From: Thermoproteota archaeon
GTDB lineage: Archaea; Thermoproteota; Methanomethylicia; Methanomethylicales; Methanomethylicaceae
Assembly (NCBI GenBank): GCA_030055575.1
Contig: JASFYL010000007.1
Span: 1 to 38,763, forward strand
Length of the DNA: 38,763 nt
Reading direction: 5' to 3'
Below, one piece after another: positions 9,894 to 24,615 of the stretch. A program made the translations under genes and the position numbers. Below the pieces are notes generated by a model, which was not told the origin of the DNA, searched no databases, and was given only the letters and a program-made list of their open reading frames with translations. Position 1 is the first letter of the stretch. Each line of letters starts with the position of its first letter.

Positions 9894-9987
9894 GTAAAAT
9901 AGGGTTCAAAGCGTGGAACGTAGAAAGAATTATTTTAGGCAAGGGACACGGTATATCGAGAAGCCGTCCCAAGCAATGGTGGTCACA

Positions 9988-11229
9988 ATGGTTAGAATTG
10001 CTCAGATATCATGTGGCTCGGAGTACAGCGGAATCCAAGCCGAGATCGAAAAGGCTGCAAAGATCGTCGGTGGCAGCATCTTCGTGCCAGAAGTCGATGT
10101 CTCAGACATCAGGACGATAGAGGACGAAATAGGGTTCCATGTTGCAAGCCCAGGGCTCAGGGTGATGATGGCTAGGGCGAAGGCTATTGTCGACGGCAGG
10201 GTTGACGCGGACGGTGTATTTATAGCCACTTGCTTCAGGTGTGCCGAAGGCGCCTTGGTTAGGAGCGTCGTCAGAAGGTATATCCAGAGCCAGACAAAGA
10301 TACCCGTTGTTACGTATTCCTTCACCGAGAGGACGAAGGCGGGCGCGCTCCTCCTTAGAATGGAGGCGCTGGTCAACATCATTGACAAGAAGCCGCTCTT
10401 CGCGAGAATGAAGCAGGAAGGCATAACCGCGGGGATAGACTCGGGGTCTACAACAACGAAAGCAGTTGTGATGAAGGACAATGAGATCATCGGACAGGGA
10501 TGGCTCCCTACCACGGGCGTGCTAGACTCGGGCATGGCGGCCCTGAACCAAGCTTTGAAAGAGGCAGGGATAGACGAATCGAAACTCGAGGCGGTCGGGG
10601 TCACAGGGTACGGAAGGGCAATACTCAAGGAAAAGTACAAAGCCCAGCTGGCAATGGAAGAGGTCTCCACATGCTCGAAGGGGGCGCTCTTCCTTACAGA
10701 CAGGCAGAGAGGAGATGCTACAGTCATAGACATCGGAGGCATGGATAACAAGGCAGTTACCCTATACGACAGCATACCAGACAGCTTCACGGTCGGGGGA
10801 GTCTGTGCCGGGGCGTCTGGGAGGTTCCTCGAGACCACCGCCAAGAGGCTAGGGGTTCCGATCGAGCAGTTCGGGGAACTGGCTGCTAAGGGGAACTGGA
10901 AGGCGGTGCCAATGAATGCCTACTGCATAGTCTTCGGCCTCCAGGATCTGGTCGCCGGGCTCGCGGGCGGTGCGAAGCCAGAGGACGCGGCAGCAGCCGC
11001 GTGTCACAGCGTCGCTGAGCAGGTCTTCGAGCAGCAGCTCCAAGAGATCGACATCAGGTACCCGATAATACAGGTGGGCTCGACAGCCCTAGTTAAGGGA
11101 CTTGTCAAGGCCATGTCTGAGATACTAAGCGTTGAGATGATAGTACCCAAGAAGCCCAATCTAATCGGGTGCGTCGGGGCGGCAGTCATGGTATCCGGGA
11201 TGAAAGATCTAGAAGAATCGAGGAGATAA
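9988..11229 (+). CDS. Methanogenesis marker protein 15-like; BadF/BadG/BcrA/HgdC-type ATPase
   Basis: [15 protein letters not shown] phosphate-1 motif, [42 protein letters not shown]-terminal extension with CFRCAEGA. Internal ATG 9988 preferred over the track start 9913. Confidence 0.85.
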
Positions 11230-11248: not shown

Positions 11249-12460
11249 ATGATCCTCAAGCCAGTACCCAAGGGGTACACTTCTGGGACCCATCGGGAGA
11301 GACCCCCATCTGTGACGCTCGAATGGGTCGCCGCGGTCAAGGAGAAGGCAGGAATAACGAGGGTAGCAGAGATAACAGGGCTCGATAGGATAGGGATCCC
11401 CATCTTCACTTCGATAAGACCCATGGCTTCAAAGGGAGCGGTCACCGTCTATACGGGCAAGGGCTCATCGGAGGAGGAGGCAGAGGTCTCCGCCATAATG
11501 GAAGGCATAGAACGGTTCTCTGCAGAGCCTCGCGGCTTCGAGCTCGTGAGGGGGTCATTCTCCGAGCTCGCAAAGGCGTGGAATGTCCTCGACCCGAACA
11601 GGCTGATCCTACCGCGGAGATACCCGCTCGGAGAGGAGATCGAGTGGGTCAGAGGACACTACATCACGGATGAGAAGGAAGTATTGGTTCCTGCAGAGGC
11701 GGTCTTTCATCCTTACTCACGCGCGAACCAGCTCTTCAGGACGAACACGAACGGCCTCGCGGTCGGGAACGTGTTGGAAGAGGCGATCGTCCACGGACTC
11801 ATGGAGCTGATAGAGAGGGACGCTTGGTCCCTCTTCGAGGCAGGAATAACCGAGGGGGCAGACTTGGAGATAGGCAGCTGCAAGACAGGAATGGCAGGTC
11901 CCCTATTGGACAAGATGGAGAGGGCAGGAATAGAAGTCTACGCTAAAGACATAACTTCAGACATCGGGATACCGACTGTCGCAGTGGCGATTGATGACCA
12001 AGTTACCAAGGATCCAGCGCTCCTTTCCCTCGGTGTAGGTACCCACCTTGTGGCAGAGATAGCGGTGGTCAGGGCGCTGACCGAGGCCGTGCAGAGCAGG
12101 CTGACTACGATACATGGCACCAGAGAAGACACGGTCAAGGCAGAGTTTGCCAGGAGGATCGGGTACGAGAGAATGAAAAGGATAAACAGGAAGTGGTTTG
12201 CCCCGAGTCAGAGAAAAACCACGCTCCAGCAAATGAAATCATACACCACCGAGGACTTCCTCGAAGACATAAAATACACGCTGGAGTCACTAAGAAGGGT
12301 CGGTCTCGCCGAGGTGATAGTGGTGGATCTTACAAGGCGTGAAACTGGTGTGCCGGCGGTGAGAGTCATCGTCCCGGGGCTGGAGGTCTACGCCCTTGAC
12401 AAGGAGAGGGCTGGCGAGAGGCTTCGCGCCCGTCGGAGGGGAGCGGATAAGGATAGATGA
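11249..12460 (+). CDS. ycaO: YcaO-domain protein, methanogenesis marker 1-like (McrA-glycine thioamidation)
   Basis: EEEAEVSAIMEGIERFSAEPRG, GNVLEEAIVHGLMELIERDAWSLFE, RALTEAVQSRLTTIHGTRED; overlaps tfuA and sits near mcr genes. Confidence 0.92.
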   Translation: MILKPVPKGYTSGTHRERPPSVTLEWVAAVKEKAGITRVAEITGLDRIGIPIFTSIRPMASKGAVTVYTGKGSSEEEAEVSAIMEGIERFSAEPRGFELVRGSFSELAKAWNVLDPNRLILPRRYPLGEEIEWVRGHYITDEKEVLVPAEAVFHPYSRANQLFRTNTNGLAVGNVLEEAIVHGLMELIERDAWSLFEAGITEGADLEIGSCKTGMAGPLLDKMERAGIEVYAKDITSDIGIPTVAVAIDDQVTKDPALLSLGVGTHLVAEIAVVRALTEAVQSRLTTIHGTREDTVKAEFARRIGYERMKRINRKWFAPSQRKTTLQQMKSYTTEDFLEDIKYTLESLRRVGLAEVIVVDLTRRETGVPAVRVIVPGLEVYALDKERAGERLRARRRGADKDR

Positions 12461-13110
12461 GAGCTGCAGTCTTCCTCGGCCCCAGCCTCCCGAGGGAGGA
12501 GGCCCTCCGGGTGTTTAGGTCTGCGGTCTACTACCCTCCGGCGGCGAGGGGTGACATAGCCGCTGCGGCGGATAGTGGATTTCAGATAATCGGGCTCATA
12601 GACGGCGTCTTTTACCAGCAGGCAGCGGTCTCCCACAGGGAGATACTCGATGCCATGAGCGGGGGGATCAGGATATTTGGGGGCTCAAGCATGGGAGCCC
12701 TAAGGGCATCCGAGCTAGATGTCTTTGGGATGGTAGGCGTAGGGAAGATCTACGAGTGGTATAAGTCCGGAAAGATAAGATCCGACGATGAGGTCGCATT
12801 GGCGTTCCACCCAATGGACTACAGACCCCTCTCAGAGCCGCTCGTAAATACGAGGGCCACTCTGGAGAGGCTCTTTATTGAGGGTCGCATCTCTCTGAGA
12901 GAGCACGACTTGCTCCTCGGGGCGGCAAAGGCGATCCAATTCCAGCTCAGGAACCCATACAGGATAATTCAGAAAGCACTACACGACGGGCTCGAGAAAG
13001 AGCGAGGGAGGGAGCTATTGGACTGCATGCTGAAGGCGCGGGTGGATCTGAAGAGGGAGGACGCCCTCATGGTGCTTAAGAGGATAAAGGATGAAGTTAA
13101 AGAGCTTTAG
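12457..13110 (+). CDS. tfuA: TfuA-like protein, partner of YcaO in McrA-glycine thioamidation
   Basis: VFLGPSLPREEALRVF...YYPPAARGDIAAAADSGFQIIGLIDGVFYQQAAVSHREILDAMSGGIRIFGGSSMGALRASEL; start overlaps the ycaO end by 4 nt. Confidence 0.9.
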   Translation: MRAAVFLGPSLPREEALRVFRSAVYYPPAARGDIAAAADSGFQIIGLIDGVFYQQAAVSHREILDAMSGGIRIFGGSSMGALRASELDVFGMVGVGKIYEWYKSGKIRSDDEVALAFHPMDYRPLSEPLVNTRATLERLFIEGRISLREHDLLLGAAKAIQFQLRNPYRIIQKALHDGLEKERGRELLDCMLKARVDLKREDALMVLKRIKDEVKEL

Positions 13111-13283: not shown

Positions 13284-14900
13284 ATGAGCGTCCCCCTCAT
13301 AAGGGTCGAGAATGTCACAAAGTCATTCAACGGCAACAAGGTCCTTGACAACATCTCCCTCACCGTGGAGGAGGGCGATAGGATAGGCATCATCGGCAAG
13401 AGCGGCTCTGGAAAGACCGTGCTCCTCTCCATGATGAAAGGCATACGCGAGTACAGACCCGACTATGGGCGGATCATCTTCAACATCGCGGTCTGTGAGC
13501 ACTGCGAAACCGTTGAGGGTCCAAGCTGGGCGCATAAGAAGTGCCCGTATTGTTGCCCCCATTGTGAGAAGGAGATGAAGCTCGCAGAGGTCGATATTTA
13601 CAGCGATGACCCTAAGACAAAGTGGCTAAAGCAGCGGATCGCGATAATGTTCCAGAGAACCTTTGCGCTTTACGGAAGCCTAACCGTCTACGAGAACCTC
13701 GTCGAGGCACTTAACAAGGTTTCCTCCGAGGACGCCAGTAGGAAGGCGCTAGAAATTGCGAAAGAAATCGGCCTAAATAACAGGCTACTGCACGCCGCCC
13801 GGGATTTGAGTGGAGGGGAGAAACAGAGGGTAGTCTTGGGAAGGCAGTTAGCAGTCAAGCCGATACTGCTCCTCGCCGACGAACCCACGGGTACGCTCGA
13901 TCCTCTGAACGCAGACATGATCCACAAGATAATCAAGAGGGAGACCGGACCAGGTAAAAGCACTCTACTGGTGACATCACACCTACCAGGCGCCATAGAG
14001 GAGCTGTGCGATAAGGCGATCTTCCTCGAGGGTGGCAGGATACAGGCTTTTGGGGATCCGAAAAGTGTGGTTGAGAAGTTCATGTCGAAGCTATCCCCCG
14101 AAGAGGTCACCAAACCCCCTGAAACGGGAGACGTGATCCTCAGGGTGAAAGACCTGAAGAAGTACTACTTCTCGATAGACAAGGGAGTGGTCAAAGCCCT
14201 CGACGGAATAACCTTCGAGGTAAGGGAGAGGCAGATCTTTGGCATCATAGGCCTCAGCGGCGCAGGGAAGACGACGCTATCGAGGACGATAGCGGGCGTC
14301 ACTGCCCCCACTTCAGGTGTGATCGAGCTCAAGATCGGCGATGAGTGGATCAACATGCTAGAACCCGGCCCTATGGGGAGAGGTAGAGCCACCCCATTCC
14401 TGGGGCTGTTGCACCAAGAGTACGCGCTCTACCCTCACAGAACTGTGCAAGAGAACCTGACAGAGGCAATAGGGCTCGAACTGCCTGACGAGTTTGCCAG
14501 GTTCAAAGCCCACAGCGTGCTGACAGCCGCCGGCTTCGACGAGGCATCAATTGAACGGACATTGACCAAGTACCCAGACGAACTCAGCGAGGGGGAGAGG
14601 CACAGGGTCGCACTAGCTCAGGTACTAATAAAGGAGCCCATTATCGTACTGCTAGACGAGCCCTCAGGTACCATGGATCCCCTCACACAACAGGATGTCT
14701 CCAAGTCGATCAAGAACGCGAGGAACGAACTAGGGCAGACATTCCTGATCGTGTCCCACGACCTAGGCTTCGTAACCAACACCTGCGAGGAAGGGATATT
14801 GATGAGGGCGGGCAAGGTCGTCAGCAGGGGAAAACCTTCTGACCTGGCCAAAGAACTGACCCCAGAAGAGAAGGAAGAGCTAGCGAATTCCAAAAACTGA
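13284..14900 (+). CDS. atwA: Methyl-coenzyme M reductase system component A2 (tandem ABC ATPase)
   Basis: Two Walker A/signature sets (GIIGKSGSGKTVLLSMMKG ... LSGGEKQRVVLGRQL; GIIGLSGAGKTTLSRTIAG ... LSEGERHRVALAQVL). First domain has a Cys-rich insert CEHCETVEGPSWAHKKCPYCCPHCEKEM. Start ATG 13284 preferred over 13245. Confidence 0.9.
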   Translation: MSVPLIRVENVTKSFNGNKVLDNISLTVEEGDRIGIIGKSGSGKTVLLSMMKGIREYRPDYGRIIFNIAVCEHCETVEGPSWAHKKCPYCCPHCEKEMKLAEVDIYSDDPKTKWLKQRIAIMFQRTFALYGSLTVYENLVEALNKVSSEDASRKALEIAKEIGLNNRLLHAARDLSGGEKQRVVLGRQLAVKPILLLADEPTGTLDPLNADMIHKIIKRETGPGKSTLLVTSHLPGAIEELCDKAIFLEGGRIQAFGDPKSVVEKFMSKLSPEEVTKPPETGDVILRVKDLKKYYFSIDKGVVKALDGITFEVRERQIFGIIGLSGAGKTTLSRTIAGVTAPTSGVIELKIGDEWINMLEPGPMGRGRATPFLGLLHQEYALYPHRTVQENLTEAIGLELPDEFARFKAHSVLTAAGFDEASIERTLTKYPDELSEGERHRVALAQVLIKEPIIVLLDEPSGTMDPLTQQDVSKSIKNARNELGQTFLIVSHDLGFVTNTCEEGILMRAGKVVSRGKPSDLAKELTPEEKEELANSKN

Positions 14901-15809
14901 CTCAAAAGAAAGATCCATGAATAACCTGCATTCCGAGCCTAGCCTTACCTTAATCTTCTTTGTATCATCGAACTTACCCACTACACTGGCAGAGAATCCT
15001 GCCCGGTTCAGCTTCTCTACAAGGGATCCATCGTCTGTGGCGAAGATGAATCCCATAGCAGGATAGGAAATGAACCAATCCGAGATGTTAGTACCCGCGG
15101 GTCTTGGGATCCTCCCCGCGTCAACCTCGGCTCCGACTGAGCTGGCCTCGCAGAGCATTGCCAAGCTCCCCAAAACACCAGGGGCACTGATGTCCCTGGA
15201 CGCTCTCACAAGCCCATATTCGATGGCTGATACAATCGATTCCAACATGACCCTGAGCTCAGTGCCGGTCTTCCTCAGCGTACTGTCAAAGCACCTGACC
15301 CACCCCTTCACCCCGAAGGAGCCGTCCAAGTCCAGTGCCATCACTATGAGATCCCCAGGTCTCGCAGTGCTCCCTTTTGCTACCTTCTTGGCGATCCCAA
15401 CAACTGCGGCATCAATCGCCTCATAGGAGGAGTCCGGATGGGTATGCCCCTTCAACAACTTGAGACCGTACTTGTCGAGCCCGGCCTTGATTCCCTCAGC
15501 CATTCTCCGCCTGGTTTCAAGGGTCCCAGACATGACATTCACATATCCCATGGGTCTGGCTCCCTTTACAACGACATCATTAACGTTAACTAACACAGAG
15601 TAGTACCCCGCGAACCAAGGGTCGGACTTTACGAGGTCTTCGGTTATACCATCGGTTGATACGACGATGTTTAGACCGCCAAACTCTATTACCCCTGCGT
15701 CGTCATACTCGTGCTCGCCTAGTATCTTTGTTATTTCGCCGATCTCAACCTTCCTTTTGAGACCCTTGAAATTCTTTGCCACGTTGATGATGTGGGAAAG
15801 ACCCTCCAA
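14880..15809 (-). CDS. Methanogenesis marker protein 2-like (AIR-synthase/PurM-fold family)
   Basis: LGEHEYDDAGVIEFGGLNIVVSTDGITEDLVKSDPWFAGYYSVLVNVNDVVVKGARPMGYVNVMSG (PurM/SelD-like DD...D.I.V NDI arrangement). Confidence 0.87.
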   Translation of the reverse strand: MEGLSHIINVAKNFKGLKRKVEIGEITKILGEHEYDDAGVIEFGGLNIVVSTDGITEDLVKSDPWFAGYYSVLVNVNDVVVKGARPMGYVNVMSGTLETRRRMAEGIKAGLDKYGLKLLKGHTHPDSSYEAIDAAVVGIAKKVAKGSTARPGDLIVMALDLDGSFGVKGWVRCFDSTLRKTGTELRVMLESIVSAIEYGLVRASRDISAPGVLGSLAMLCEASSVGAEVDAGRIPRPAGTNISDWFISYPAMGFIFATDDGSLVEKLNRAGFSASVVGKFDDTKKIKVRLGSECRLFMDLSFESVFGIR

Positions 15810-15879: not shown

Positions 15880-16170
15880 ATGGGGATCAAGGAAGGAGAC
15901 ACAGTAGTCTACAGCAAGACAGGAACCAAAGGCAGGATTTCCAGACTCGTAGAGTTGGAGGGAAAATTGTGGGCCGAGCTTGACACTACAGGGCTCCTTT
16001 ACGACGAAAATGCGCTTGAGGTCGTTGAGGTTGAGGATACTCCCAAAGAGGGGTGGACTGAGGCGTCTAGACCGAAAAAGGAAAGGGAACAAGAAAATGT
16101 ACGGGAGGAGGAGCTGAAGGGAGGGGACATGACCATCGATACGAGCGGGAGCTGCAGCGGGGCAGGGTGA
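15880..16170 (+). CDS. DUF2098-like small protein
   Basis: MGIKEGDTVVYSKTGTKGRISRLVELEGKLWAELDTTGLLYDENALEVVE; ATG 15880 after GGAGG; the track start 15667 runs antisense over marker 2. Confidence 0.75.
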   Translation: MGIKEGDTVVYSKTGTKGRISRLVELEGKLWAELDTTGLLYDENALEVVEVEDTPKEGWTEASRPKKEREQENVREEELKGGDMTIDTSGSCSGAG

Positions 16171-16179
16171 GGAGGAGAG

Positions 16180-16944
16180 TTGAGAAAAGCAGTCGTCCTG
16201 GACAAGTCTGGCACAATAATAGATCCCTGCAGGATTGTGTACAACCTAGAGACCGGAAAATGGCTTTTTCACGTGAGCACGCTCAAGTACGTCGTTGAAA
16301 AAGGAGGGGTCCTAGTAAACCTAAGAGGGTCGGCTTCCAAGATCATGAAAGGCGACCTAAGGGGCGTGCAACTCAAGGTTAGCTGCTGTGCAGTAGATCC
16401 AGTACCGCGCTTGGACAGATATAAGCTCGAAAAACCCAGTGTTGTAAGCGCGGTAAAGAGCGTTTTTATGAAGGCTAACGAGCACTGCTCCTCCGAGCTC
16501 GGAGCGTGTGTGGCAGTAGTGTTCGATTCGGCAGGAGATATAACGGATATTGTAGGCCTGGGGGGAAGGCTTTACAGCGATGTCCGCGGGGCGGTGTCGG
16601 AGATGCGGAGGGAGGGGGTTGATGTCTACCTAGCAACCGGGAACTGCAGGGAGATGACTCTCAAATGTGCCGAGGTGCTCGGAATGCCTAAGTATGCCGC
16701 GATCTTTGATGCCTCGCCTGAGGACAAGAGGGCGCTCGTCAGGAGGCTGAGGGGGTTCTACGGCGCCGTCATCATGGTTGGTAATGACATTAATGACCTT
16801 ACCGCCATGCGCGAGGCGGATATTGCCATACTCGTTTTGAGGGACGGTTCAAGCCCTAGGGAAAAACTTGAGACAGAGGTCGACTACTTAGTAGGATCGC
16901 TTACAGAAGTGGCGGAGATCGTCTCCTCGATTAGACCGATCTGA
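16180..16944 (+). CDS. HAD-superfamily protein resembling soluble P-type-ATPase-like phosphatases
   Basis: N-terminal VVLDKSGTIIDP (P-type-like DKSGT) and C-terminal VIMVGNDINDLTAMREADIAILVL (HAD motif IV); TTG start after GGAGGAG. Confidence 0.8.
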   Translation: MRKAVVLDKSGTIIDPCRIVYNLETGKWLFHVSTLKYVVEKGGVLVNLRGSASKIMKGDLRGVQLKVSCCAVDPVPRLDRYKLEKPSVVSAVKSVFMKANEHCSSELGACVAVVFDSAGDITDIVGLGGRLYSDVRGAVSEMRREGVDVYLATGNCREMTLKCAEVLGMPKYAAIFDASPEDKRALVRRLRGFYGAVIMVGNDINDLTAMREADIAILVLRDGSSPREKLETEVDYLVGSLTEVAEIVSSIRPI

Positions 16945-17530
16945 CCTCAAAGTAATGCTCTCGGTACTCGGGGTGGAAGTGGGGGAGGCTCCCGGCAATC
17001 TCCTTTTCCAATGCCTTTAGCCTCCCCATCTCCTCGCGTTCTACGAAGGAGATTAGCCCCCTCTCATGTGCCGAGTCGCAGAATATGCTGCATGGGATGA
17101 ACCCTGCTGTGGTAACGAAGGCGAACTTGCCTGAGATCTTAAGTTCGTTCAAATGATCATCATCGATACTGTACCTAATCCTCTCGGAGAATGAACGCAT
17201 GCAGCATTCGGGGTAGTCAAGGAAGCTCCCTATCTCGTAATCGCTAAAGGATTTTGAGAAAATGCCGATCTGGGTCGAAGTGTAGGGATCAAGCGCTGGT
17301 CTGACAGGAGGGGAAAAGCGGCTGACGATGCTGAGCTGCAGTTCAAGCCGTGGCAGCACGTCGAAGAGCCGGTCCTCCTGGAAAAGCTTGGAAATGTGAC
17401 TGGCTAAGTTTGGCGAGAGCGGGTGCCTGGCCCTTGCTTCATCAGGGTCTATAATGGAGAGAGCCCTTATCCTCTCGACCAGCCTCGAGAAAGATTCTTG
17501 ACCTTTCGAAGACATATATTCAAAAAGCAC
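16931..17530 (-). CDS. DUF483-like protein
   Basis: GIFSKSFSDYEIGSFLDYPECCMRSFSERIRYSID and FVTTAGFIPCSIFCDSAHERG. Confidence 0.7.
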   Translation of the reverse strand: MLFEYMSSKGQESFSRLVERIRALSIIDPDEARARHPLSPNLASHISKLFQEDRLFDVLPRLELQLSIVSRFSPPVRPALDPYTSTQIGIFSKSFSDYEIGSFLDYPECCMRSFSERIRYSIDDDHLNELKISGKFAFVTTAGFIPCSIFCDSAHERGLISFVEREEMGRLKALEKEIAGSLPHFHPEYREHYFEVRSV

Positions 17531-17550
17531 AAAAAAAGAAAAAAAGGTTG
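17525..17550 (-). terminator. T-rich terminator downstream of mcrA (minus strand)
   Basis: Plus-strand AAAAGCACAAAAAAAGAAAAAAAGG = minus CCTTTTTTTCTTTTTTTGTGC just past the mcrA stop. Confidence 0.55.
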
Positions 17551-17560
17551 TTGTGTCCGC

Positions 17561-19231
17561 TTACCTGCTCGGTATGATGAGGGACCTCTCGCCCGCGGGC
17601 ATGAACTCCCTCAGCGCGCCCTTTCCGAAGCAGAGCCTCGGGTGGGTGAAGTCGAACTTCAGGTCCTTGTCGGCGAATGCTATCTTTATCAACGGGTTGG
17701 TCGTCCATGCGTCTCCCCTTCCGCTGTGCGCTGCCTGGACGATACCCGTGTGCGCCGACTGGTGACCCACGTTCAGGGCGTAGTTCGGATAGTTCACACC
17801 CCTCAGGTTGAAGGGCAGACCCTCGTCGCTCCTGTACGAGAAGCTGTTCGCCGAACCGCACTGGTCCTGCTGGTCGTAACCGTAGAAGCCTAGCCTGCCC
17901 ATCTCCTCCTTGTGGAGAAGCTGGCTCAGGTACCAGCCGTTGATACCAGCGGTGCAGTTCCCTGTCGCAAGCGAGACAGCGACACCTGCGCCTGCAGCCA
18001 CCACCGCAGCCCTCTGGGATCCACCGAAGTGGGTCTCCATCAGTGCCGGGAAGCGCTCGTACTGCTCTAATCCGTACAGAGAGACTTCGGTCGCGATGTC
18101 CTTGATCAGGTCCCAGCTTGGCTTTGCCTTCCCAAAGCCGCCGTACTTCTTCTTCACATAGTCCGCTCCATAGTAGCAGAAGTCGTCCAGGATGTTGTCG
18201 GTGTATGTGCAGGTCGCGTACTGAGTGAAGCCTACGCCTCCGGACATGTAGCTGCCGAACCAGAACTGGTCATACAGCACTGCGCCCATCGAGATCGCCT
18301 CTAGTGCGACCCACGTCGGGTCCTCCGGCTTCACCCTAGACGCCTGGCACATGTCTGCGAGGTATCCGAGCGGGATTCCTCCGGGCTCGTTCGGGCCCCT
18401 CGCGCGCCTCCATGGCATCAGGGTTCCCATCTCGATGACCTCAGCGTGCTTCGCTGCGAATGCGAACTCTCCGATCGCTGCCTCACCAGCCATCAGCTTG
18501 TAGGCGTTGACCATCGACATCGAGATCTGCATCGCGGACCATCGTGACATCGTACCTCCATCGCAGGTCATAGCAACTATGGTGGGCATGCGCAGTACCT
18601 GGTAGATCCTCTTTCCGACTGCAGCCTTCAACTGTGCAGCCTGGTCTGCAGGGAACTCCTTATTTATGTCGATCAGGAACCGCTTGTCTATCTCGTCCGC
18701 GAGCTCGTCATCTCCGGTGAAGACCTTCACGTAAGAGTCCGCGACTAGACCTGGGTGGGTCTCGACCATGTGCTCCTGGATCACTGCGGCACCGGGCAGC
18801 GCGTGGTTCAGGATCTCGAGGTAGTGGTTGACCGTCTCTGGGGTGACTTCTTTGCCAAGCCTCTTCTGCAGCACCATGTGGGCAGCGTCTAGACCTACTA
18901 TGACGGTCCTTCTAATGTCGTGCCACATCTGCTGCATTGCTGCGTTGTTAACGAAGTGCAGGTCGTCGCCCTCGCAGTATATGTCTGTCTGCGAAATCTT
19001 ATATGGCATCAGAACCCGCTGACCAAGCGGAATGCCGCCCAAGTGCATCTCGGGGTTGTAGAACGGGATGCCTCTCTCCTTCGCCAGCTTTGTGCCCCAT
19101 TCGACGAACTCCTGCTTCCTCTTGGACTGCTTCCAGCCGTCGTATATATAGAACTTGGTATACTTCTCTTCAGGAGACTCCTTGAACTTCTTCCTGAGTG
19201 CTTCCAAGAACATCTTCTTTTCAGTTGCCAT
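17561..19231 (-). CDS. mcrA: Methyl-coenzyme M reductase subunit alpha
   Basis: 556 aa; [128 protein letters not shown]. Confidence 0.98.
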
Positions 19232-19245
19232 TCACATAACCTCCT

Positions 19246-20022
19246 TTAGATACCCTTCACCTTGTTTGGATCGAACCCAGCCTCCGTCCTCAGCATGTGC
19301 AGGCGCTGCACGAACTCGATCATTTCCTTGTCCTGCCTGAACGGCACACCGTCAACCCTGTACTCGCTGGTCATCTCCCTGAGTTCTTCTTCCTTGATCG
19401 GCTTCCCGACCGATATCGGCTTGTCCAGCGGGACTCCGATCTGGTCCTTGACGTAGACGACTTCGCCTGTCTTCTTGTCGAAGACGAACCTCCTGAGCGC
19501 ATCGAACATCATCCCGTTCTCGTCGAGCCTCAGCGAATGCCCGTGCACTGTAGCCCCTCTGATGCCGCACCTCGCGGGATCGAAGATCTCGGTCTCCACG
19601 AGCTCCTTTGCGACCTTCTCCAAGTCACGCTCGCGCATCTCTAGCGGAACCCTGCCCGAGAGGACACCGATGTCTACCCCTCTGTAACGAGTGTGACCCA
19701 TCCATGCACGCATGTAGGGCGTCAGCGGGGTGAAGTAGACTGAGTCCGTGAATTGGATGTACCTGATCCTGTCCCCTGCCTTGGCTCCTGGCGTCGGCTC
19801 CACGAGCTCCCTGATCGGGCATACCGGCTCGCCCATCTCCTCCAGTGGCGGATGGACGGACTTGTATGCCTCTCCGGGAACCCTGTGTCCCATCAGCTTG
19901 ACCAGGTCGTCGTCGCTGATGGTTCTCAGCTTCTTCAGCTTGTAGGACGGGTCCATGTACTTCTTCCTGTTCTTGGCTATTTTGCTTTCTCCAGGATAAT
20001 ACTGTGCCTTGTATGTTGTCAT
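19246..20022 (-). CDS. mcrG: Methyl-coenzyme M reductase subunit gamma
   Basis: [66 protein letters not shown] 20022 is 1 nt past the mcrB stop, so preferred over the track start 20058. Confidence 0.97.
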
Positions 20023-20023
20023 T

Positions 20024-21358
20024 TTAGACTCCTCCCATAATGGATACTGCTGCCTCATTCACATATCTCAGCGGCTCCCTCAGTTCAGGAACCTCGCTAA
20101 GAGTCTCCCCGACCACGCCGCTGATCTTCTCCGGCGTGTAGATGACCGTGCCCGCATCGAGCGCGACCGCAGCGGCTACGCACGGGATGGTGAAGCCCTT
20201 GCTGTGCCTCGTAACGATGTGGTTGCCGTGGAACACAGCGGGGTTACCTCCTCCATAGATCGAGTGGCTGAAGAACGCCATCTCAACTCCCGTACCAGCT
20301 ACCCTTCCAAAGTCGACACCGGGCAGACCAGTCTCCCTTTCGATCAGGTCGTTGAAGTATATGAAGACGGACGGGCAGTGCTGCATCGACCTTGCTGAAC
20401 CGCAGGTTATCATTGTACCAGCAAGCAGACCCGCAGCGGCGTAGGCGTTCCACTTGTTGAGGTCGTCCGTTGTGTACGCAGTATAGCCTGATGGCTTCTT
20501 CTCGAGCGGCTTTATCACGCCGTCGGCTAGAGCCCTCTTAACGGTAGAGATAGCTACATCGCCAAGCGTACCCGTCTTTGCGTTCTCCTTGACAAGGTCA
20601 TAGACCAGGTTGTTGGCGTTCAGCCCCTGGTATGCCAGCCCTAGTAGGTGAAGCCTCTCGAAGTTCCCGACAGCGTCACCCATCTCAAACATTGCTGCCT
20701 GCTCCATAATCGCAGAAAGGGCTGCTGCATTCATAGCGTTCTTCTTGGTGATCAGCGCAATGTGCGCGCAAGGCACGTTCCTCAGCGCATATCCCATACC
20801 CTCATTCTGTTGCGGAACCGACAATAGTGACGACACGTTTCCGCCGAGCGGCTCCATAGTCTGCGGGTACCTTCCCCAGACTGCTGCATGGATCAGGTCT
20901 GCGTCCCATAGGTTGACCTTGAAGTTCTCGACTATGGTGCAGCAGAGGGCTGCGGCTGTCGCTGTGAAACCAGTCGTGTACTCGACGCCTGCATTAAGCC
21001 TCTTCGCAGGTACCTTGACCAAGAGGTGCTTCCCGCCCTTGAGAACCTTAACCTCGGTGTCGTCATCCTTGGTCACCTGCAGGCACTTCTTAAGGCTGTC
21101 AGCGATGCTCTCAGCATTCTTTGTCAGGTCTAGCTTAACGGACCTGCCTTTGATGATGCACCACTTGCCGCCAACTTCACCGGTCGCCAGGGCCTTCTCG
21201 ATGCCTTCGAGGTTCACTGAAACGCACTGCTTGATGTAGGAAACGATCTTCTGTATGGCTGGGTTGTGCAACGGGCTTACGGCTTCGACAGGAACCTTGG
21301 AGGCGAAAACGCGGCCACGATCGTCGTATAGATCTATCTTATCCGGATATTTCGCCAT
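20024..21358 (-). CDS. mcrB: Methyl-coenzyme M reductase subunit beta
   Basis: [89 protein letters not shown]-like [28 protein letters not shown]. Confidence 0.97.
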
Positions 21359-21506: not shown

Positions 21507-22058
21507 CTATTCTGTTGACGAGAGGATCTTCTCGACGAGCGTCTCCAACGAATCTATGATATTCGACTCTTCTATGCGTATTGTGACTAAAGGTATCCTC
21601 ACGAACTTCTCTATGGTGGTTGCTACTATGGATGCACAGACCAGCCCCTGCACCCTCTCACGCTCGGCCTTGATTGCACTGATGATCGCATCCTCCAGGC
21701 TGTTCACTGGATACTCCTTGATAAGGACTTTCTTCCCCTTCAGGATCATGACATTCTTGGAGAAGGCGTTCAATGAAGAGCGCGCAGCGATTATTCCCAC
21801 GGTGATGTCCCCTTCCGCAACTCCATGCTGGGTGACGACATATCGTATAACATCCCGGAGTGTGGAGAGGCGCAGATCCCTGTCCTCAGAGAGGATCTTG
21901 TTTATGGTGCTGACCGGGACGCCAGATCCCGCGCTGAGTTCCTTTACAGTAATGCCCTTTTTCCGCATCACGGACTTTAGCAACTCAGCGAACTTCTTGT
22001 TGGATTCCATCGCAGCGGATATCAGTGCGTCGAACAGTTCGGGATCCACGACTTCCAA
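21507..22058 (-). CDS. XRE-type HTH transcriptional regulator
   Basis: HTH LKSVMRKKGITVKELSAGSGVPVSTINKILSEDRDLRLSTLRDVI with an uncharacterised C-terminal domain. Confidence 0.8.
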   Translation of the reverse strand: MEVVDPELFDALISAAMESNKKFAELLKSVMRKKGITVKELSAGSGVPVSTINKILSEDRDLRLSTLRDVIRYVVTQHGVAEGDITVGIIAARSSLNAFSKNVMILKGKKVLIKEYPVNSLEDAIISAIKAERERVQGLVCASIVATTIEKFVRIPLVTIRIEESNIIDSLETLVEKILSSTE

Positions 22059-22069
22059 AACGCACCCCT

Positions 22070-22870
22070 CTATAGAGCAGTTATCTCTTCGTGGAGATAG
22101 CCGAGTATCTTCTCGCGGTATGATATGAACGGCGGGCTGAGCCTCGCCCTAGGATATTCGAGATTCACCTTGACCACTGCCTTTACGGTTGCTGGTCTCT
22201 TGGTCAGAACAACAATCTCCTGTGCCAAGAAGACTGCCTCGTCAACATTGTGAGTGATAAAGATAACGGTCTTGTTGAATTTGGACCAAACCGCAAGTAG
22301 CTCCTTTTGGAGTATCTGGCGGGTCTGCGCGTCGAGGTCGGCGAACGGCTCGTCCATCAGGATTATCTCCGGGTCGACAGCCATCGCCCTGGCTATAGCC
22401 ACGCGCTTCTTCATTCCGCCGGAGATCTGGTGAGGATAGTATTCCTCGAAGCCCTTCAATCCGACCAGGGAGAGGAACTCTCTTGCCAGATCATCGATAT
22501 CGGTCTTGTTTCTAGTTATCTCCAGACCAAACTTCACGTTGGCTAACACATTCCTCCACGGAAGGAGGGAGTCTTCCTGGAAGATTACGCCGAATCGATT
22601 TCTCTTCGGATCCGGAGGGTTTCCCTTCACCAGTACCCTCCCACTCGAAGGCTGGAGGAGCCCGCACATCAGCTTTAACAATGTGGTCTTCCCGCACCCC
22701 GATGGTCCGACCACACAGAGGAACTTTCCGTCGTCGACGCTGAGAGAGAGGTTCCTTATGACCTCTATTGTGTCCTTGCCGGATTTGAAGGTCTTGCCGA
22801 CGGATTCAAGCACGATCTCTGGTCCCAAATTCGATTCCCCTCCATTCATGCCCTCACTTCCACTCTCCAC
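22070..22870 (-). CDS. ABC transporter ATP-binding protein, NitT/TauT/SsuB type
   Basis: CVVGPSGCGKTTLLKLMCGLLQPSSGRV, GVIFQEDSLLPWRNVLANVKFGLE, ISGGMKKRVAIARAMAVDPEIILMDEPFADLDAQTR. Confidence 0.93.
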   Translation of the reverse strand: MESGSEGMNGGESNLGPEIVLESVGKTFKSGKDTIEVIRNLSLSVDDGKFLCVVGPSGCGKTTLLKLMCGLLQPSSGRVLVKGNPPDPKRNRFGVIFQEDSLLPWRNVLANVKFGLEITRNKTDIDDLAREFLSLVGLKGFEEYYPHQISGGMKKRVAIARAMAVDPEIILMDEPFADLDAQTRQILQKELLAVWSKFNKTVIFITHNVDEAVFLAQEIVVLTKRPATVKAVVKVNLEYPRARLSPPFISYREKILGYLHEEITAL

Positions 22871-23637
22871 TTGAATAGGCGCCTCTCGGTGGACAGGATC
22901 GCGTAGTTGAGTATCAGGCCGATGATGCCGATGGTTACCATCCCCAATATGACCACATCCATCTGGTATAGGTTCGCGTACTTTATTATCAGCCTACCTA
23001 GGCCAACAGGATCACCGCCTATCATCTCAGCGGCGACAATGCACATCCATCCTACTCCAAGCCCTACCCTCAGCCCGCTCATCACTTCAGGGAGTGCGCT
23101 CGGGAAGACGATCTTGAATGTGATTGTGCGGCTATCTGCACCAAAAGTCTTAGCCATGTCGACCAAGACGGCGGAGGTCCGCTTGACGCCCGCGATCGTG
23201 TTCAGTAGGATAGGGAAGAAGGCTCCAATCCAGATTAGGAAGACGTATCTCGTGATCCCTCCGAGGAGGATTATTGCCAATGGGATCCAAGCTATAGGCG
23301 GGATGAACCTTATAGGTTCGATTATAGGAGACGATACGCTGTTTACAGAGGGCTTTAGCCCCATAAAGATCCCTAAAGGGATTGCGGTCATGCCCGCGAA
23401 TAAGAAGCCGAGAAGCACTCGGTAAATGCTTGTCATGGCGTGAGAGGACAATGTGTAGCCGTCGATGTCCCCCGCAGTCGATATCCTGAAGAAGGCAGTG
23501 AGCACGCTGTATGGACCAGGAAGGAAGGGCGAGTTCATCCAAACAGCTAGAAGTTGCCAAAGGAAAAGAAAGACTATAAGAGAAAAAAGCCCTAGGAGCA
23601 GGCTTTTTGCCCGGTCAGCGTGCTTCATCTGTCTCAC
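22846..23637 (-). CDS. ABC transporter permease, NitT/TauT/SsuC type
   Basis: About 6 TM segments; EAA-like loop VDMAKTFGADSRTITFKIVFPSALPEVMSGLRVGLGVGWMCIVAAEMIG. Confidence 0.92.
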   Translation of the reverse strand: MRQMKHADRAKSLLLGLFSLIVFLFLWQLLAVWMNSPFLPGPYSVLTAFFRISTAGDIDGYTLSSHAMTSIYRVLLGFLFAGMTAIPLGIFMGLKPSVNSVSSPIIEPIRFIPPIAWIPLAIILLGGITRYVFLIWIGAFFPILLNTIAGVKRTSAVLVDMAKTFGADSRTITFKIVFPSALPEVMSGLRVGLGVGWMCIVAAEMIGGDPVGLGRLIIKYANLYQMDVVILGMVTIGIIGLILNYAILSTERRLFKWRVEVRA

Positions 23638-23643
23638 TCTTTA

Positions 23644-24615
23644 TCAGATGAAGCGCGTGTCTATAAATGCGTTTATGAAGTCGTCGACCTGTTCATGTGT
23701 CAGGGTGGTTACCACATTGAGGTCTATCATGGCGTGGAGGAATGTCTTCATGCTCACCGGATCTGGGGTCGAGGTATATACGATGTGTGACAGTGCCAGA
23801 TCGATGAGTTGTGAGGAGTGACCAGTTATGTTCATTGCAAGCTGCTTTGCATAAGCAGGGTTATTTATGATATAATTGTTTGCCAACTTGTGTGCAGCAG
23901 CAAACTTAGAGACCAAATCCTGGTGAGATGCTAGGAACTTGTTTGAGACGACGAGTACGCAGCACTGATGGTTCTCAAAGAGATCCTTGGAAGTAAGAAG
24001 GACATGAGCCCCAGACTGGACCACAGCGATGGAAGGAGCGGGCTCCCAACCTATGAAGCCGTTTATTGTCCCTTTGCTGAACTCAATCGGTAAGTACGAA
24101 ATTGACATGGGGCTTTTTGTTAATGTCAGGTTGTGATCTCTTATGTACATGCTAAGGAGAATGTCTTGGATTGTCCCTGTCCCAGGCGTACCTATAATCT
24201 TGCCGCTCAAGTCCTCGGGTGACTCGATACTCCCATCGACCACGATGGCAGATCCCTCAAGGTTAACCGAGGCGATCACGACTGGGAGATGCGCATTAGG
24301 ATCTGACATCCCCTTTGCCCTCGCAGAGATAGCCGGAGGCGCACCCACATAAGCAAAGTCCAGCTCACCAGCCAAAAAGTCCTGCATCAGAAGCGGACCA
24401 TTAGCGTACTCCTTTAGCTCGATCTTGATTCCGGATTGCTCAAAGTAGCCCTGGTTTCTTGCTACGAATAGAGCCAAATGGTGGAGATCTCCTGTCAGGT
24501 GCCCAACTCGCACGGTAGCTGTCTGCTGGGGAAACAGAAAACCAGAGAAGTATATGCCTGCACCTACTATTACAATAAGGGCAATAACAGATACAATAAG
24601 GATTTTGCTCGCCAT
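23644..24615 (-). CDS. ABC transporter substrate-binding protein, NMT1/SsuA-like, N-terminally anchored
   Basis: N-terminal TM anchor then VRVGHLTGDLHHLALFVARNQGYFEQSGIKIELKEYANGPLLMQDFLAGELDFAYVGAPPAISARAKG. Confidence 0.9.
   Translation of the reverse strand: MASKILIVSVIALIVIVGAGIYFSGFLFPQQTATVRVGHLTGDLHHLALFVARNQGYFEQSGIKIELKEYANGPLLMQDFLAGELDFAYVGAPPAISARAKGMSDPNAHLPVVIASVNLEGSAIVVDGSIESPEDLSGKIIGTPGTGTIQDILLSMYIRDHNLTLTKSPMSISYLPIEFSKGTINGFIGWEPAPSIAVVQSGAHVLLTSKDLFENHQCCVLVVSNKFLASHQDLVSKFAAAHKLANNYIINNPAYAKQLAMNITGHSSQLIDLALSHIVYTSTPDPVSMKTFLHAMIDLNVVTTLTHEQVDDFINAFIDTRFI

Follow-up and report, generated by a model that had tools for sequence, protein, structure and literature searches.

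A probable Methanomethylicota version of the MCR maturation and activation neighbourhood, with DUF2098, DUF483 and an order-specific HAD-superfamily protein beside mcrA

MCR makes nearly all biological methane, and its assembly and switching-on have been solved only in part. The closest described system is the MCR activation complex of M. maripaludis, in which a DUF2098 protein co-purifies with McrC, Mmp7, Mmp17, Mmp3, and A2 and is bound by the McrC loop C138-I168, and among whose co-purified subunits DUF483 was not reported (PMC12176620). DUF2098 had already been recognized in 2011 as a perfect methanogenesis marker by ProPhylo profiling (PMC3226654). A soluble P-type ATPase, arCOG01579, has been described from >90% of methanogens except Methanomassiliicoccales and from no other archaea (Borrel 2014 Table 5, PMC4153887), and DUF483 domains have been reported as fusions with, or neighbours of, radical SAM and methyltransferase genes, the radical SAM cases being in phages and bacteria (PMC11437467). 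In a search of the literature, DUF483 was not named as a methanogenesis marker, and neither DUF483 nor the HAD-superfamily (HAD) protein described here carried a name in an MCR context. We consider it probable that the locus presented below is the Methanomethylicota version of the MCR maturation and activation neighbourhood, with DUF2098 docking McrC, DUF483 serving as an accessory, and HAD as an order-specific add-on; beyond DUF2098, every assignment of function is one that we infer.

The window, i.e. the whole stretch of DNA analyzed (38,763 nucleotides), corresponds to an entire contig in the 1.36 Mb draft assembly of a Methanosuratincola-like methanogen (Ca. Methanomethylicota), whose named relatives comprise Ca. 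Methanosuratincola and other Ca. Methanomethylicota. Its MCR region contains the following features:

9913..11229, plus strand: methanogenesis marker 15, a BadF/BcrAD-type activase ATPase (TIGR03286, 647.2 bits)
11249..13110, plus strand: ycaO and tfuA, McrA-glycine thioamidation genes (TIGR03266, 467.6 bits; NF033432, 247.2 bits)
13284..14900, plus strand: component A2 (AtwA), ATPase of the MCR activation complex (TIGR03269, 721.8 bits; PDB 8s7v chain K, E = 1.5e-173)
14880..15809, minus strand: methanogenesis marker 2-like gene, AIR synthase-related (best NCBIfam match TIGR03267, 239 bits, below the cut-off of 365)
15880..16170, plus strand: DUF2098 protein, 96 aa (PF09871, 63.9 bits against a cut-off of 25, profile positions 2-94 of 94)
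16180..16944, plus strand: HAD-superfamily protein, 254 aa, TTG start, DKSGT motif I (PF00702, 53.1 bits against a cut-off of 26.4)
16931..17530, minus strand: DUF483 protein, 199 aa counted from GTG 17530 (PF04467, 112.5 bits against a cut-off of 25)
17520..17560, minus strand: oligo-T tract CCTTTTTTTCTTTTTTT in the mcrA/DUF483 spacer, at least 15 T in 17 nt
17561..21358, minus strand: mcrB, mcrG, and mcrA, the MCR structural genes (TIGR03256, 1008.6 bits; TIGR03259, 393.6 bits; TIGR03257, 645.5 bits; each above its cut-off)

Marker 15, ycaO, tfuA, A2, and the marker 2-like gene lie to the left of the three genes of interest, and mcrA, mcrG, and mcrB to the right; the marker 2-like gene is divergent from DUF2098, and DUF483 is on the same strand as mcrBGA. 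The DUF2098 stop is separated from the HAD TTG start by 9 nt, and the HAD stop ends at 16944 and the DUF483 stop begins at 16931, which makes these two genes convergent with a 14-nt 3′ overlap. This agrees with the first-pass annotation, which had placed all three genes between marker 2 and mcrA with DUF2098 and HAD adjacent on one strand and the same convergent overlap, and each of the three scored above its family cut-off. Comparison with homologues makes ATG 17515 a more likely start for DUF483 than GTG 17530.

The part of this locus that can be tied most directly to the described complex is DUF2098. A family profile built from this phylum (A1) matched PDB chains 8s7x_L (E = 9.5e-08) and 8s7v_L/9h1l (E = 1.2e-07), titled “DUF2098 domain-containing protein” in entries 8S7X, 8S7V, and 9H1L; the window’s DUF2098 sequence by itself, when searched against the PDB, returned no match. 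All other named subunits of the activation complex (McrC, Mmp7, Mmp17, Mmp3, and A2) are encoded by the window’s genome, with A2 in the window itself and another contig (C97) carrying McrC and Mmp5 adjoining a Mmp3-Mmp6-Mmp17-Mmp7 run. The partner McrC (L104/L142) was recovered at 283 bits, and its C138-I168 docking loop is identical at 17 of 31 positions, about the level of the whole protein (56%), in an alignment that takes the PDB numbering to be offset by a 36-residue tag, as suggested by the agreement of Cys138 and Ile168 with the residues at those positions. Based on the family match and the conserved partners, we regard the window’s DUF2098 as a new member of a known component and, by homology, as the putative McrC-docking subunit of an MCR activation complex. 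The label “uncharacterised” given earlier to the three genes was therefore wrong for DUF2098, a family member of which is seen in the solved complex.

To place all three genes in a broader context, we compared their distribution with that of mcrA, which was found in 27 of 398 Thermoproteota genomes. DUF2098 was detected in 26 of these 27, the one miss being a genome (G163) whose mcr contig ends inside the HAD gene, and full-length DUF483 (86–121 bits) in all 27. Among the mcrA-negative genomes, both families were found in G175, a Nezhaarchaea-like genome that is 72% complete, with McrC present and mcrA not recovered; the only other DUF2098 match was a weak, short ORF (66 aa) in G170, a genome with 9% contamination and without mcrA or McrC. 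This ORF (L143 4638-4838, G170:C122), possibly a contaminant or a distant paralogue, is located close to a 535-aa ORF reading like a B12-type radical SAM protein. The remaining DUF483-like matches in other archaea were partial and reached 20–41 bits, and they were set aside as distant paralogues. Association with mcrA was significant for both DUF2098 and full-length DUF483 (Fisher tests, p < 1e-36 each), with the kinship of genomes overstating independence, since the mcr-positive genomes belong to two related orders of one class and represent few independent events. An mcr-linked distribution, as anticipated in the first-pass annotation, was borne out within Thermoproteota in that neither DUF2098 nor full-length DUF483 is broad in mcr-negative genomes; HAD proteins of a generic kind and DUF483-like proteins of distant relationship are present there.

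Euryarchaeal coverage consisted of two named controls: M. jannaschii, in which both DUF2098 and DUF483 are present, and M. acetivorans, in which DUF483 was not found although mcr and DUF2098 are present. DUF483 is therefore not a universal MCR factor, and its presence in every mcr-positive genome holds inside Thermoproteota and fails in M. acetivorans. HAD was found in 23 of 23 Methanomethylicales sampled, including 16 mcrA-positive genomes at 306–418 bits (next match, 66 bits) and 7 more, and in none of five Nezhaarchaea-like genomes positive for mcr or McrC, “Nezhaarchaea-like” being an inference for this family (f5) from class membership and gene content. HAD is accordingly not a marker of every mcr-positive genome in the phylum. 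The proposal of a single three-gene module survives in part, as DUF2098 and DUF483 do travel together; an obligatory module is ruled out, with HAD missing from mcr-positive Nezhaarchaea-like relatives in which the DUF2098-DUF483 pair persists. Searches of phage and plasmid records returned no DUF483 match, and scans of viral contigs returned no relatives of the DUF2098, HAD, or DUF483 families. Four Methanomethylicota genomes also carry a second, divergent mcrA-like gene (G046:C3, G157:C23, G161:C112, and G164:C212; 516–534 bits, below the cut-off), possibly an alkyl-CoM reductase.

The block mmp2-DUF2098-HAD-DUF483-mcrA is kept in the named Ca. Methanomethylicota contigs, complete wherever the contig is long enough, with a single exception in order (L080, in which mmp2 is about 3.7 kb off). 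Full-length HAD identity across these contigs is 39–67%, and dN/dS is 0.07–0.32 for DUF2098, HAD, and DUF483 wherever it could be computed with synonymous change unsaturated. This low dN/dS and the conserved block indicate that the three genes are not chance ORFs. The HAD/DUF483 3′ junction varies in relatives from a 70-nt overlap to a 52-nt gap, which rules out a functional 14-nt overlap and points to compact packing rather than a signal. HAD-DUF2098 spacing ranges from −4 to +30 nt across 16 genomes, consistent with co-translation. On its two strands together, the window contains just two stretches with at least 15 T in 17 nt, one of them being the oligo-T tract in the mcrA/DUF483 spacer, and T-rich spacers are found at this place in relatives too. 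The tract likely acts as an archaeal mcrBGA terminator, which transcription into DUF483 would need to cross, so that DUF483 may be made at a low level via read-through, or else from its own promoter. On the far side of the mcr genes, an SsuABC/Tau-type sulfonate/taurine ABC transporter (22070-24615) and an HTH regulator (21507-22058) lie directly upstream of mcrB on the same strand family-wide, which suggests coenzyme M or sulfonate supply, and a DUF2124 protein (PF09897, 25573-26046), a further uncharacterized archaeal protein, is retained close to mcr in the majority of Methanomethylicota loci.

A different arrangement is found in three Nezhaarchaea-like genomes (L124-L126), where the order is Mmp6/Mmp17, mcrBGA, an A2 paralogue, DUF2098, DUF483, Mmp5, Mmp15, and then Mmp7 and A2, preceded by a 512-aa ORF that is probably Mmp3. 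Here DUF2098, DUF483, mmp5, and mmp15 lie on one strand with spacing from about a 27-nt gap to a 4-nt overlap, so that DUF483 probably shares an operon with marker genes; the DUF483 gene of Methanomethylicales instead comes after mcrA, on the mcr strand. The A2 paralogue, a second A2-like double ABC protein in the mcrA-DUF2098 interval, was seen in all three Nezhaarchaea-like regions fetched (L124 11194-12888, L125 11530-13227, and L126 7780-9474), and the copy of G127 scored 285.9 bits to the A2 model, below the cut-off. An intact mgmA (McrA glutamine methyltransferase) precedes DUF2098-DUF483 in G173 and G175, the G175 copy being cut by the contig end. Only mgmA fragments were seen between the A2 paralogue and DUF2098 in G127 (L124 9640-10262) and G103 (L126 around 10389-10629). 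An intact mgmA also abuts HAD in G115 (L127 12853-14208), which belongs to a different family of the window’s own order; this contrasts with the statement in a 2025 paper that Methanomethylicales are without MgmA (PMC11796369).

HAD motif I is invariant at D8, S10, G11, and T12 in 15 of 15 sequences, and the motif residues D8, S10, T12, T153 (≥90%), K183, D203, and D206 are conserved. The predicted structure (pLDDT 90.8) found its best PDB folds in the P and N domains of CopB/CopA. Only the catalytic part matched P-type ATPases, the Pfam scan gave no membrane or actuator (TGES) domain, and the cap is of its own type, with cysteines that are conserved in the main family and largely lost in G115. 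These features raise the alternative that HAD is simply the methanogen soluble P-type ATPase arCOG01579, i.e. a gene of methanogenesis at large and not one specific to the order. While both the published distribution of arCOG01579 (PMC4153887) and the soluble P-type ATPase-like sequence and fold of the window’s HAD speak for it, we regard this identity as possible but doubtful: a pattern scan of 84,980 species, although insensitive to distant relatives, returned Methanomethylicota only, and mcr-positive Nezhaarchaea-like genomes are without HAD, with arCOG01579 compared by its published description. We favor HAD as a candidate soluble P-type-ATPase-like, lineage-specific accessory of Methanomethylicales that is coupled to DUF2098 and whose link to MCR is uncertain.

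For DUF483, six residues (C109, C110, H126, C151, H184, and H186) are invariant in 18 of 18 sequences, alongside the kept strings RPA-DP and LPH-H. The structure was predicted with a pLDDT of 93.5, and fold searches against the PDB and a viral structure library gave no match at E < 0.001. The natural reading of the invariant Cys and His residues is that DUF483 probably binds a metal or an Fe-S cluster. Its link to MCR is strong because of both its distribution and its gene order in two lineages, and we propose it as a candidate, and probable, accessory in the maturation or activation of MCR. As marker 15 is an activase-type ATPase by family, DUF483 could plausibly take part in supplying the activation complex with electrons or clusters. 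The main rival is that DUF483 and HAD act in McrA post-translational modification and not in reductive activation, DUF483 as a radical-SAM or thioamidation partner or adaptor and HAD in a phosphatase or ATPase step. This would fit ycaO and tfuA in the same cluster, the intact mgmA beside DUF2098-DUF483 (G173 and G175) or beside HAD-DUF2098 (G115), and the reported phage and bacterial cases in which a DUF483 domain is fused or adjacent to a radical SAM protein (PMC11437467). We nonetheless judge it unlikely, as all genomes of Methanomethylicales family f1 keep DUF483 and no tested f1 genome has an above-cut-off mgmA, DUF483 is intact in G127 and G103 where mgmA is fragmentary, and DUF483 sits directly upstream of mmp5-mmp15 in the Nezhaarchaea-like genomes. 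Less probable still is that HAD and/or DUF483 are housekeeping genes that came to lie beside mcr by chance and were held there by low rearrangement in one lineage: HAD belongs to a very large superfamily and is confined to one order, and thiamine, NAD, and ABC transporter genes also keep their place in the cluster family-wide, but DUF483 keeps its mcr/Mmp link in two different gene arrangements and is found at full length in no mcr-negative genome except the mcr-remnant G175, and HAD stays directly adjacent to DUF2098, as its operon partner, despite rearrangement elsewhere in the cluster of G115.

Taken together, these results favor a maturation and activation neighbourhood in which the three genes would contribute with decreasing certainty. 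In a first step, shown for the family in M. maripaludis and transferred here by homology, DUF2098 would dock the McrC loop in the McrC-Mmp7-Mmp17-Mmp3-A2 complex, which would grip one MCR half and relay electrons through large Fe-S clusters so that, with ATP as the control, F430 is reduced to Ni(I). In a second step, suggested by distribution and gene order, DUF483 would act as an accessory of the same activation process, supplied either from its own gene just downstream of mcrA (Methanomethylicales) or from the DUF2098-DUF483-mmp5-mmp15 row (Nezhaarchaea-like genomes); it would probably bind a metal or Fe-S cluster via its invariant Cys and His residues and help Mmp5 and Mmp15 prepare or reduce the activation complex or MCR. 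In a third and weakest step, HAD, translated right after DUF2098 and with a P-type-ATPase catalytic layout predictive of aspartyl-phosphate chemistry, might modify, recycle, or regulate something in the same process as an order-specific add-on. The MCR role that the first-pass annotation had read from location hence stands for DUF2098 through the solved complex, is likely for DUF483 from its distribution and its gene order in two lineages, and stays uncertain for HAD. A part in F430 maturation or repair, also raised there, is neither favored nor disfavored by these results. A bolder version, which we offer as a long shot, would have DUF483 as a new-fold metallocluster protein that, with Mmp5 and the activase-like ATPase Mmp15, feeds electrons or clusters to the [8Fe-9S-C]-like wire of McrC/Mmp7/Mmp17, with the HAD of Methanomethylicales as an aspartyl-phosphate switch on the DUF2098-McrC joint. 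If true, this reading of DUF483-Mmp5-Mmp15 would account for the physiological reductant branch that is missing from the picture of MCR activation.

The placement of DUF2098 in the activation complex would extend that machine outside Euryarchaeota, to a methanogen of an uncultured lineage. The new elements here are an mcr-bound candidate factor of Thermoproteota, DUF483, along with the DUF2098-HAD coupling of Methanomethylicales, the role of DUF2098 being already known for its family. DUF483 is a specific candidate for a further factor, as it is strictly mcr-linked in Thermoproteota, lies beside Mmp5 and Mmp15, and carries invariant Cys and His residues.

Compared to known systems, each of the three proteins combines shared and distinct features. 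The window’s HAD shares with P1B ATPases and COG4087-type proteins the D-K-S-G-T motif I, the T of motif II, the K of motif III, and the paired acids of motif IV, and with CopA/CopB the fold of the P and N domains; it differs from P-type ATPases in being without a transmembrane or actuator domain, in its own conserved cysteines, and in a motif IV that reads GNDIND instead of GDGxND. The DUF483 protein matches its family (PF04467) over the full length, including the GYPxCC and TAGFIPCSxxC motifs, whereas the distant DUF483-like proteins of mcr-negative archaea are longer and match the CC region only, and the one examined in full is also without RPALDP and LPHxHxxY. Neither HAD nor DUF483 has been reported in the solved M. 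maripaludis complex, and the locus further differs from that system in that DUF2098 is operonic with HAD and DUF483 is linked to the cluster. In Methanomassiliicoccales, the “SH3 fold protein” (arCOG04846) encoded directly upstream of mcrA may, as compared by description, belong to the DUF2098 family (PMC4153887). With M. maripaludis, the window’s genome has in common that DUF2098, McrC, Mmp7, Mmp17, Mmp3, and A2 are all encoded and that the docking loop is conserved.
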